Shown: positions 1,051 through 8,039 of the stretch, piece after piece
Numbering within the stretch: the stretch's first letter is position 1
How the letters are laid out: the number at the start of each line of letters is the position of its first letter
Assembly (NCBI GenBank): GCA_023143935.1
Contig: JAGLGQ010000043.1
Location: 1-8,072, forward strand
Direction of reading: 5' to 3'
DNA from: Minisyncoccota bacterium
GTDB lineage: Bacteria; Patescibacteriota; Minisyncoccia; Phycocordibacterales; GCA-2747955
Length of the DNA stretch: 8,072 nt
Notes under the pieces: model-generated
What the model was told of the DNA's origin: nothing
Seen by the model: the letters and a program-made list of their open reading frames with translations, nothing else
The model's database searches: none
Made by a program: the position numbers and the translations under genes

Positions 1051-1063
1051 GCTTTTTTGTTTG

Positions 1064-1132
1064 TATTTTTCAACAAATCCGATTTGTACGGTAACTGTAA
1101 GTTACCGTACAAATCGGATTTGTTGAAAAATA
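1064..1132. repeat. long perfect inverted repeat (33-bp arms, 3-base loop)
   Basis: The left arm (1064-1096) starts TATTTTTCAACA and the right arm (1100-1132) is its exact reverse complement, with loop GTA. It lies nine bases after the stop of the cell-wall hydrolase gene and 14 bases before the -35 box of the lipoprotein promoter (minus-strand order). It probably ends or insulates the hydrolase transcript, but no U tract follows the stem on the minus strand, so it is not a canonical intrinsic terminator. Its ends (TTTTCAACA ... TGTTGAAAA) are shared with the hairpin at 4451-4513. Confidence 0.85.
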
Positions 1133-1141
1133 ATGATAAAT

Positions 1142-2080: not shown

Positions 2081-2108
2081 TTGACTTTTTTCTTTATACA
2101 TATAATAT
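2081..2108 (+). promoter_or_regulatory. promoter of the leader peptide and thrS
   Basis: The -35 box TTGACT lies at 2081-2086. The -10 is ambiguous: a perfect TATAAT at 2101-2106 has only a 14-base spacer, while TAATAT at 2103-2108 has a 16-base spacer. Either choice puts the transcription start at about 2113-2116, at or just before the leader-peptide ATG, so the leader peptide would be read from a leaderless or almost leaderless mRNA. Confidence 0.6.
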
Positions 2109-2115
2109 AAATAAT

Positions 2116-2157
2116 ATGTTAGCAATAACTACAACAACAACCACTACGACTGCATAA
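2116..2157 (+). CDS. threonine-rich leader peptide of thrS (13 residues)
   Basis: ATG at 2116-2118 opens a 13-codon frame, MLAITTTTTTTTA, ending at TAA 2155-2157. Eight consecutive threonine codons (ACT, ACA x3, ACC, ACT, ACG, ACT) use all four synonymous codons, which is notable in an AT-rich genome. The peptide lies between a promoter and an intrinsic terminator in front of thrS. Its job is inferred to be sensing charged threonyl-tRNA by ribosome stalling, as in the thr operon leader of enterobacteria and the phenylalanine-rich leader of pheST. The start has no Shine-Dalgarno sequence and lies at or within a few bases of the predicted +1, which suits leaderless initiation. The product itself probably has no function beyond being translated. 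Confidence 0.85.
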   Translation: MLAITTTTTTTTA

Positions 2158-2218
2158 AGCAGAGGTTTTGTTGAAGTTAAAAATAAAATCTCTTTAAAGT
2201 AATTTAAAGGGGTTTTTT
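2132..2218 (+). promoter_or_regulatory. transcription attenuator: segments 1:2, 2:3 and 3:4
   Basis: Three competing helices can be read from the sequence. Helix 1:2 pairs CAACAACAACC (2132-2142, inside the Thr codons) with GGTTTTGTTG (2164-2173): ten pairs with one bulged C at 2138. Helix 2:3, the antiterminator, pairs AGAGGTTTTG (2161-2170) with TAAAATCTCT (2184-2193): ten pairs including two G-U wobbles, with a 13-base loop. Helix 3:4 is the terminator. A ribosome stalled on Thr codons covers segment 1 and frees 2 for 3, giving read-through. A ribosome reaching the stop at 2155 covers part of 2, so 3:4 forms. Without translation, 1:2 forms and termination follows. The pairings are seen; the mechanism is inferred from classical attenuation. 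Confidence 0.82.
2185..2218 (+). terminator. attenuator terminator upstream of thrS
   Basis: TCTCTTTAAA (2189-2198) pairs with TTTAAAGGGG (2203-2212) through ten pairs, two of them U-G, around the loop GTAA. Six T residues follow (2213-2218), and up to four flanking A residues can extend the stem into the T run. It ends 19 bases before the thrS ATG, so termination here would block thrS expression. Its left arm overlaps the antiterminator half-helix. Confidence 0.82.
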
Positions 2219-2237
2219 AAAAAATAATTAAATAAAT

Positions 2238-4428: not shown

Positions 4429-4454
4429 ATGTAAAAAAATAGTTTTTTACATTT
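4427..4454 (+). terminator. A/T-rich hairpin at the stop of paralog 1
   Basis: AAATGTAAAAAA (4427-4438) pairs perfectly with TTTTTTACATTT (4443-4454) around the loop ATAG. The stem starts inside the stop codon and overlaps the first bases of the larger hairpin at 4451-4513. It is a weak candidate for transcription termination or mRNA end protection. Confidence 0.5.
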
Positions 4455-4513
4455 TCAACAGGTTCGGCCTCTGACAAGGTTGAACCTTGTCAGAGGCCGG
4501 ACCTGTTGAAAAT
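4451..4513. repeat. long GC-rich inverted repeat (31-base arms)
   Basis: The left arm starts ATTTTCAACAGGTTCGGCC (4451 onward) and pairs with 4483-4513. The only imperfection is T4464 opposite G4500, a U-G wobble if read as plus-strand RNA and an A/C mismatch on the other strand. The formal loop is one base (G4482), so in practice it is a few bases. It separates paralog 1 from the promoter of paralog 2. No T run follows directly. It is much richer in G+C than its surroundings, and its TTTTCAACA ends match those of the repeat at 1064-1132. Confidence 0.85.
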
Positions 4514-5217: not shown

Positions 5218-5262
5218 AAAAAAACGAGCGAAAATTCCTTCGGAATTTTCGCTCGTTTTTTT
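5218..5262. terminator. bidirectional intrinsic terminator between convergent genes
   Basis: CGAGCGAAAATTCC (5225-5238) pairs perfectly with GGAATTTTCGCTCG (5242-5255) around the loop TTC. It is flanked by an A run before and seven T residues after (5256-5262), so both strands show stem plus U tract. It follows the stop of paralog 3 by five bases and can also back up termination of recG from the other side. Confidence 0.92.
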
Positions 5263-5271
5263 ATTTTAAAT

Positions 5272-5313
5272 AAATAGTGTCCCCTATAGAGTACTCTATA
5301 GGGGACACTATTT
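5272..5313. terminator. 42-bp perfect palindrome after recG
   Basis: The 21 bases 5272-5292 (core AGTGTCCCCTATAGAGT) are followed directly by their exact reverse complement (5293-5313). The element sits two bases beyond the recG stop codon. A T run (5311-5317) follows on the plus strand; the minus side has only a broken T/A tract. It probably ends recG transcription together with the neighbouring hairpin at 5218-5262. Confidence 0.75.
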
Positions 5314-7601: not shown

Positions 7602-8039
7602 ATGAAATATTTAGGAATTGATTATGGGAGTAAAAATATTGGGTTGGCTATTTCGGATTCTTCTGGTGTGGTAGCAATGCCTTATTTAATTTTAAATAAT
7701 AATAGGGATTTTTTAGGTGAAATTGCAAAAATTGTTGAAAAAGAGAAAATTGAAGCTTTTGTTTTTGGGGAGTCTAAAAATTTTAAAGGGGAAGATAATA
7801 GAATAAATATTGAAATAAAAAAGGTTGCAAAAGAGTTTGAAGAAAAATTTAAATTACCAGTTTATTTTGTTAATGAGATTTTTTCATCTATGGAATCGAA
7901 ATGGGGGGTGGAGAAGAGTATAAGGAGGGGGGAGAAGAAAAGTAGGAAGAGTAGGGGGGAGGGAAAGGTTGATGATAAAGCGGCAGTTATGATTTTGAAA
8001 TTATTTTTGGAAAAAAAATTATTGAACGATAGAGTTTGA
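7602..8039 (+). CDS. ruvX: RuvX/YqgF family RNase H-fold nuclease
   Basis: YqgF-family proteins are RNase H-like nucleases linked to pre-16S rRNA 5' processing and to Holliday junction resolution. The 145-residue product has M-K-Y-L-G-I-D7-Y-G-S opening the fold, F-G-E-S-K-N-F-K-G (55-63) in place of the usual GLP-x-N-x-x-G loop, N-E92-I-F-S-S (91-96) at the usual DERLTT site and V-D124-D-K-A-A (123-128) near the end. The acidic residues D7, E92 and D124 are kept, while the Asp before Glu has become Asn. A basic Arg/Lys/Gly loop (105-122) is encoded by a G- and purine-rich tract. The frame is open upstream to 7557, but that ATG lies inside recG; the conserved N-terminus fixes the start at 7602. 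Stop is TGA. Confidence 0.92.
   Translation: MKYLGIDYGSKNIGLAISDSSGVVAMPYLILNNNRDFLGEIAKIVEKEKIEAFVFGESKNFKGEDNRINIEIKKVAKEFEEKFKLPVYFVNEIFSSMESKWGVEKSIRRGEKKSRKSRGEGKVDDKAAVMILKLFLEKKLLNDRV

Follow-up and report, generated by a model that had tools for sequence, protein, structure and literature searches.

How does a bacterium of reduced genome, probably one of the Patescibacteria, a group believed to rely on other organisms for its amino acids, match the output of a tRNA synthetase gene to the supply of its amino acid? The question is raised by a short threonine-rich open reading frame (ORF) in front of thrS, the gene for threonyl-tRNA synthetase, on contig 68 of the assembly G000 (630 kb, 129 contigs, 88% complete). 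The whole stretch analysed, 8,072 nucleotides, is called the window below. Within it, thrS is identified with certainty (TIGR00418, 670 bits, cutoff 384), and the domain search gave no match to the TGS domain in the 585-residue protein. A previous, sequence-only reading had proposed attenuation of the kind known from the trp and thr operons. This proposal is supported by the anatomy of the leader, by a thrS leader in a second species of the genus (G002) and by a copy in front of an ABC-F gene (abcF) of G000 that keeps the helices. We put the probability at about 85% that the thrS leader is a ribosome-mediated transcription attenuator of this type, with a leader ORF that is probably leaderless.

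Anatomy of the thrS leader

The leader ORF (Table 1) reads ATG TTA GCA ATA ACT ACA ACA ACA ACC ACT ACG ACT GCA TAA. It is short and carries eight consecutive threonine codons, cognate to the enzyme encoded downstream, with all four synonyms in use; the 13-codon frame described beforehand was thus recovered. Runs of this length did not arise by shuffling: in 20,000 dinucleotide-preserving shuffles of positions 1982-2237 the longest threonine run was four (14 shuffles), and the maximum was likewise four, in 2 shuffles, when the whole window was shuffled 300 times. The order of the synonymous codons does not significantly improve helix 1:2, since permuted orders were as good in 213 of 2,000 cases for G000 and in 318 of 2,000 for G002.

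Table 1. Features of the thrS leader region, in window positions.
Feature	Position	Strand	Basis or remark
Predicted promoter, -35 TTGACT, 16-nt spacer, -10 TAATAT	2081-2086 and 2103-2108	+	Consensus scan, 9/12
Alternative -10, TATAAT, overlapping	2101-2106	+	Perfect match, 9 nt before leader ATG
Leader ORF, MLAITTTTTTTTA and stop, probably leaderless	2116-2157	+	Between promoter-like sequence and predicted 14-bp terminator
Segment 1, 5' arm of helix 1:2	2126-2142	+	Folds; within Ile and first Thr codons
Small hairpin CTGC-ATAAA-GCAG	2150-2153 with 2159-2162	+	Folds; stop codon in loop
Segment 2, 3' arm of 1:2 (2164-2173, 2175-2179) and 5' arm of 2:3 (2161-2172)	2161-2179	+	
Segment 3, 3' arm of antiterminator 2:3 (2182-2193) and 5' arm of 3:4 (2185-2198)	2182-2198	+	
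Segment 4 (2203-2216) and U-tract (2213-2218, six U)	2203-2218	+	Folds; predicted intrinsic terminator
thrS, threonyl-tRNA synthetase, 585 aa	2238-3995	+	SAD, class II core and anticodon domains found

The RNA of positions 2116-2240 folds at -27.2 kcal/mol (z = -4.75), a value that none of 200 shuffles equalled. Three helices can be formed: 1:2 (2126-2142 with 2164-2179, interrupted by a bulge and a mismatch), 2:3 (2161-2172 with 2182-2193, 12 bp) and 3:4 (2185-2198 with 2203-2216, 14 bp, U-tract to 2218). As segments 2 and 3 are each common to two helices, the helices are mutually exclusive. The four segments and three competing pairings of the sequence-only reading are therefore upheld by folding, with small corrections of coordinates and with a helix 1:2 longer than had been given. 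Helix 3:4, predicted at -11.8 kcal/mol with the loop GUAA, would be an intrinsic terminator lying between the leader ORF and thrS; it is absent from the listing of the consensus scan, which requires at least three G-C pairs.

In the mechanism that we propose, the AUG would lie at or near the transcript start, and the leader would be read in the manner of a leaderless mRNA. Should a ribosome be delayed on one of the eight threonine codons, segment 2 would remain available for pairing with segment 3; this pairing would block the terminator, so that RNA polymerase would continue into thrS. With plentiful Thr-tRNA, the ribosome would reach UAA and cover the start of segment 2, and segment 3 would join the terminator. 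If no ribosome is loaded, segment 2 would be sequestered in helix 1:2, again with termination as the outcome. The anatomy places the element with the ribosome-mediated attenuators, and its dependence on translation and on charged tRNA-Thr is a prediction of the model.

Distribution at thrS of relatives

A total of 41 genomes were searched with ThrS, and the upstream DNA was read for 28 relatives and G000 (29 loci), leaving out L032 (the match starts inside the gene), nine thrS places without a locus, and G006 and G010 (no good match). In the congener G002, whose ThrS is 81% identical, the gene is preceded by the leader MFKRTTTTTITTETA, which again has eight threonine codons and is followed by its own helices 1:2, 2:3 and 3:4 with a terminator. 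The element is absent upstream of thrS in the congeners G001 (226 nt upstream only, ThrS 54% identical), G003 and G004, as well as in all 24 other relatives read; three of the other relatives have a run of three threonine codons, no longer. In addition, none of 80 thrS loci of named genomes has, in the 400 nt upstream, a stretch of ten codons free of stops with five threonines. These loci are 45-58% identical, the best being Kaiserbacteria and other Parcubacteria, and some of their contigs end sooner (15 nt in L096).

The sequence-only reading had asked for this comparison and had named thrS relatives lacking the run or terminator as evidence against it. Such relatives are the rule outside the G000/G002 pair, but within the pair both the run and the helices are retained. 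Judging from the upstream sequences, we read the absence elsewhere as lineage restriction rather than refutation. Comparable leaders with cognate codon runs were not seen at other tRNA-synthetase genes of the genus among 46 loci, many of which have little upstream DNA (contig ends) and several of which were represented by a neighbouring ORF.

A copy of the module in front of an ABC-F gene

A covariance model (R1) was built from the two thrS leaders and searched against 397 genomes of the order. Ten genomes matched at an E-value of 0.05, the strong matches being the two thrS leaders and a second site in G000 (72 bits, E 1.2e-10). The gene behind this site encodes an ABC-F ATPase (best NCBIfam model ribo_prot_ABC_F, 307 bits, below the cutoff of 380). 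From the -35 region to the gene start, the thrS and abcF modules are identical at 137 of 163 aligned bases, with an alignment score of 144 as compared with at most 36 in 300 random pairs. In the copy, the leader is MLEMTTTISTAATTV followed by a stop: the codons are rewritten and all three helices are retained. The stop hairpin, at seven pairs, is longer than in thrS and shows one two-sided change; the fold has a z of -3.4.

Since the stop hairpin, in the middle of the MAFFT alignments (A4, A5), was misaligned, the helices were read by folding each sequence separately. All three exclusive helices form in thrS of G000, thrS of G002 and abcF of G000. In that order, the folds with 1:2 have energies of -15.4, -16.8 and -23.3 kcal/mol, helix 2:3 of -10.7, -14.3 and -12.2 kcal/mol, and helix 3:4 of -11.8, -10.2 and -8.5 kcal/mol. 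Pair-preserving changes seen by eye are U-G/C-G and C-G/U-G in 3:4 and G-U/G-C in 2:3, and the closing pair of the stop hairpin, C-G in thrS, is U-A in the copy before abcF. The changes are mostly one-sided (wobble), with a single clear two-sided change among the three sequences compared, which represent one of four congeners besides G000 and one homologous copy.

In the genus, the ABC-F gene occurs only in G000 and G002 (77% identical; two of five genomes at E 1e-60), and by eye no leader precedes the G002 gene. It is thus probable that the thrS module, with promoter, leader and terminator, was copied to the ABC-F gene in the G000 lineage, and the simplest order suggested by the sequences is that the thrS module came first. 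A loss of the abcF leader in G002 is a possible alternative.

Weaker candidates were not retained. R1 gave matches of 28-40 bits in eight other genomes of the order. A repeat search over nine of their loci gave 14 matches, and the nine alignments examined (L120, L121, L122 and G241:C21 left out) cover mainly the terminator part. At L116 (positions 1520-1685; G189, a different family of the order), a 38-codon ORF beginning MSDETTTTTTTVTP has seven threonine codons in a row and a terminator-like hairpin behind it. Another ORF follows about 140 nt on; the locus is not at thrS, helices 1:2 and 2:3 were not seen in it, and it was set aside with the others. With a wider model, R2, no further strong match emerged from 10 genomes of the family or 383 of the class; the G002 leader matches at 3e-18 in the family search and is missing from the class search, for which it was probably not drawn. 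Four weak R2 matches in the family (E 0.04-0.4) were also set aside; the DNA around three of them, all but L128, has hairpins and, by eye, no codon-run leader.

The ABC-F copy bears on what the thrS leader would sense. The part of its leader predicted to do the sensing is the second half, I-S-T-A-A-T-T, and the leader contains MTTTISTAATTV. Some peptidyl-transferase drugs arrest ribosomes when certain residues are in the nascent chain, namely Ala, Ser or Thr for chloramphenicol and linezolid. Context-specific arrest by both drugs is described in the available part of PMC13410324, where the residues are not given; the same paper describes borrelidin as an inhibitor of threonyl-tRNA synthetase that halts ribosomes on Thr codons. 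The ABC-F family moreover has members that are induced when a drug stalls ribosomes on a short ORF upstream, VmlR of B. subtilis being a worked case of such attenuation (PMC9226507, available part). The thrS leader might sense slow or drug-blocked translation in general and not the threonine supply. We consider this improbable, given that in the thrS copy the match between codons and gene is exact in two species, with eight threonine codons each in front of the threonine enzyme.

Folding of the growing transcript with a ribosome

The attenuator reading was modelled by folding growing transcripts, with the last 10 nt hidden by RNA polymerase and the 5' part by a ribosome whose edge was set at +9, +12, +14 or +16; the model is one of equilibrium and not of kinetics. 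For thrS of G000 with the edge at +12, helix 1:2 is predicted when no ribosome is present, 2:3 when the A site holds any one of the eight threonine codons, and neither of them when the ribosome stands at the stop codon, where segment 2 is hidden. At +9 and +14, 2:3 is likewise retained at all eight threonine codons, and at +16 the eighth is lost; release of the stop state is seen with every one of these edges except +9. Ribosomes at the codons before the run (Leu, Ala, Ile, depending on the setting) also give 2:3, as does one at the Ala codon with edges +9 and +12. The model therefore sets the stalling window, and the codons inside it set the amino acid.

In these G000 models, the antiterminator excludes the terminator and 1:2 excludes 2:3. 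When the full-length G000 RNA is folded with the ribosome masked and polymerase ignored, all eight stalled states give the terminator. Given this, and that 3:4 is slightly more stable than 2:3 (-11.8 versus -10.7 kcal/mol), kinetics must matter. For the abcF copy, the stop state is released from an edge of +14 on. The states of G002 are not separated: 2:3 forms in nearly every ribosome state and is released only at the stop with the edge at +16, so that equilibrium folding does not explain the off-state there.

Promoter and leaderless start

The promoter proposed upstream of the leader stands on weaker ground than the other parts. As a scan result it carries little weight, since promoter-like matches are no commoner in the window than expected by chance (39, versus 42.0 in shuffles, sd 6.3) and TAATAT fits the -10 consensus at just four of six positions. 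What lasts of the proposal is that the same arrangement recurs in all three copies of the module (thrS of G000 and G002, abcF of G000), which is better evidence than the scan. TAATAT ends 7 nt before the ATG in both G000 copies and 6 nt before it in G002 thrS, and TATAAT lies 9 nt before the ATG in both G000 copies.

If these are promoters, the -10 element is too near the ATG for a ribosome-binding site. With 7-9 nt between the leader ATG and the possible -10 elements, the leader ORF is probably leaderless, a point absent from the sequence-only reading, with transcription likely starting at the AUG or a few bases from it as judged by promoter spacing. The spacing was also counted in the genus, for 102 genes of G000, G002, G003 and G004 with free upstream DNA, with the first ATG taken mechanically as the start and a hexamer fitting at least 5/6. 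The distance from the end of a -10-like hexamer to the first ATG is 6 nt in 20 of these genes and 7 nt in 10, as compared with 0-7 genes at each other distance, and a Shine-Dalgarno-like motif occurs in four. From these counts, leaderless mRNA looks common in the genus; no paper on the subject in Patescibacteria was found, judged by title. Neither a Shine-Dalgarno sequence nor a well-spaced -10 was found before the ATG of thrS (window 2219-2237) or of abcF (L123, 1624-1652). In the lack of a Shine-Dalgarno sequence there, a read-through mRNA must begin translation by another route.

The commonness of leaderless genes and the chance-level promoter count also leave room for a different account, in which an ordinary terminator or hairpin lies beside a chance threonine-rich ORF and thrS has a promoter of its own, located after the terminator and ahead of the thrS ATG. 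There is an AATAAT 9 nt upstream of the thrS ATG, and the L116 locus shows that a small ORF with seven threonines and a terminator-like hairpin can occur in an unrelated genome away from thrS. However, on the + strand the scan lists nothing promoter-like from 2108 to 2436, and the threonine run was not produced by shuffles and recurs in G002 together with the helices. We therefore hold this account to be less probable still than sensing of drug-blocked translation, and retain attenuation by the leader peptide.

T-box leaders in the same lineage

At the window thrS, a T-box was rejected after the search with RF00230, which gave no match in the window even at E-values up to 1; the T-box core sequence is likewise absent from 2101-2237. 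Elsewhere, a T-box-like core was found upstream in 8 of 80 thrS loci of named genomes. Rfam was run on seven core-bearing loci and gave T-box matches at E < 0.01 for two of them; thrS of G036 gave one as well. T-box-like thrS leaders are those of L010 (E 2e-8), L044 (2e-4) and L101 (3e-4), all below the Rfam gathering score. T-box-like leaders were also found at serS in G000, G002 and G004, and these carry the core sequence too. In G000, the one before serS lies at C59:757-921 (L213; E 3e-10), and another at C57:2069-2200 (L219; E 3e-6) precedes an ORF followed, by eye, by an AspRS-like ORF; both score below gathering. A genome-wide T-box search at E 0.01 also matched 6 of 14 control genomes, including an archaeon, and with this and the sub-gathering scores single T-box calls are tentative.

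That a T-box, possibly degenerate, binds uncharged tRNA-Thr to control thrS, the threonine codons being a remnant specifier, is an account to which we give next to no credence despite the T-box-like leaders at these three thrS loci and at two sites in G000, as the window has neither match nor core and T-boxes need no start codon, reading frame or eight-codon run.

With T-box-like serS leaders in three genomes of the genus, attenuation of tRNA synthetases is probably at home in the lineage, and T-boxes probably occur side by side with leader-peptide attenuation in a single reduced genome. A broader scenario, on which we are evenly divided, is that the control region from promoter through leaderless leader ORF to terminator is a movable cassette. 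It would have been built for thrS, where it stands in for the T-boxes of other Patescibacteria, and copied whole to the ABC-F gene, with codons rewritten for a new specificity while the RNA pairings were conserved. The thrS locus would record two unrelated solutions, T-box and leader peptide, for one regulatory problem.

Further features of the window and the genus

Long near-perfect palindromes lie between the genes of the window (1060-1138, 2016-2068, 4446-4513, 5219-5261 and 5272-5313), one of them separating the thrS promoter from the divergent gene at 1142-1981. Rfam returned only sub-threshold hairpins on these palindromes, mostly microRNA-like; the microRNA matches, all below gathering score, are taken as chance. 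Between 4132 and 5212 there are three small ORFs without a Pfam match, two of which share the N-terminus MSSSKIERG and the first two of which have upstream promoter-like sites TTGACA-16-TACAAT (4071, 4536); they are perhaps a small paralogous cluster.

In-frame TGA codons were found at tryptophan positions of the window ThrS in the congeners G002 (L004, 4/4), G003 (L005, 5/6) and G001 (L020, 2/4), as well as inside many other synthetase matches of the same three genomes. In part of this Parcubacteria-like genus, TGA is thus probably read as Trp. The available part of a 2026 review (PMC13293708) names only TGA-to-Gly recoding, in Gracilibacteria. G000 itself looks intermediate in its TGA use: among 73 long ORFs from a sample of about 88 kb that takes in the window, five have TGA as their stop, and in three of these, RuvX (TGA at 8037) among them, another stop follows one to four codons on. 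The prfB model gave one match each (about 220 bits, RF1-like) in G000, G001 and G002, none in G003 and two each in G004-G009, with none of the 10 genomes reaching the model cutoff; since G000 is only 88% complete, a loss of RF2 is not proven.

Comparison with known systems

The enterobacterial trp and thr attenuators, trpL and thrL, have the same layout as the thrS leader: a short ORF with a run of regulatory codons, the alternative helices 1:2, 2:3 and 3:4, and a terminator before the gene, with the stop codon placed such that a finishing ribosome covers segment 2. In contrast to them, the target here is a tRNA-synthetase gene and not biosynthesis, almost no 5' UTR is predicted, and the lineage is unrelated. 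If the reading is true, such a cell would have tight coupling of transcription and translation, on a leaderless RNA, and the leader would be a built-in reporter of threonine supply.

The sequence-only reading had called such an attenuator for thrS new. Our literature search found no report of leader-peptide attenuation of thrS; Lopatovskaya et al. 2010, the title of which names attenuation of aminoacyl-tRNA operons across bacteria, may list one. Likewise, nothing was found on Patescibacteria sensing amino-acid shortage by leader peptides, judged by title among the matches listed. In the available part of PMC7143001, "leader peptide" refers to bacteriocins, and the main text of PMC1262725 and PMC4833913, as far as available, does not mention thrS. 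Leader-peptide attenuators are, however, known for pheST of gamma-proteobacteria and for trpS and leuS of Streptomyces (PMC1262725, available part). These are alike in that a leader peptide with cognate codons controls a tRNA-synthetase gene, and differ in amino acid, enzyme and phylum, the likeness being one of architecture. Attenuators at other tRNA-synthetase genes, as well as leaderless leaders of attenuators, were thus already known. Undescribed within our searches are such an element at thrS, one in this lineage, and the copying of one, with changed codons, to an ABC-F gene.

As to the leaderless start, the trpL leader of S. meliloti is leaderless (PMC7298713, available part) and transcription of the ilvBNC leader of C. 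glutamicum starts one base from the ATG (PMC11857589, available part). Both have the leader AUG at the 5' end of the RNA and no ribosome-binding site, as proposed here; their transcript starts are reported, whereas that of the thrS leader is deduced from promoter spacing.

T-boxes (RF00230) resemble the element proposed for thrS in that the charging of a tRNA decides between termination and read-through ahead of a tRNA-synthetase gene, but they bind the tRNA directly and have no leader peptide. The abcF copy, finally, is comparable to vmlR and to msrD, reportedly another ABC-F gene under attenuation by an upstream ORF, in that ribosome arrest on a short ORF would permit expression of an ABC-F gene. 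In vmlR, the arrest does so by preventing an anti-antiterminator (PMC9226507, available part). The abcF copy differs from both in being homologous to the thrS attenuator and in its longer, threonine-rich leader, and it would offer a rare view of an attenuator that moved to a new gene and gained a new trigger.
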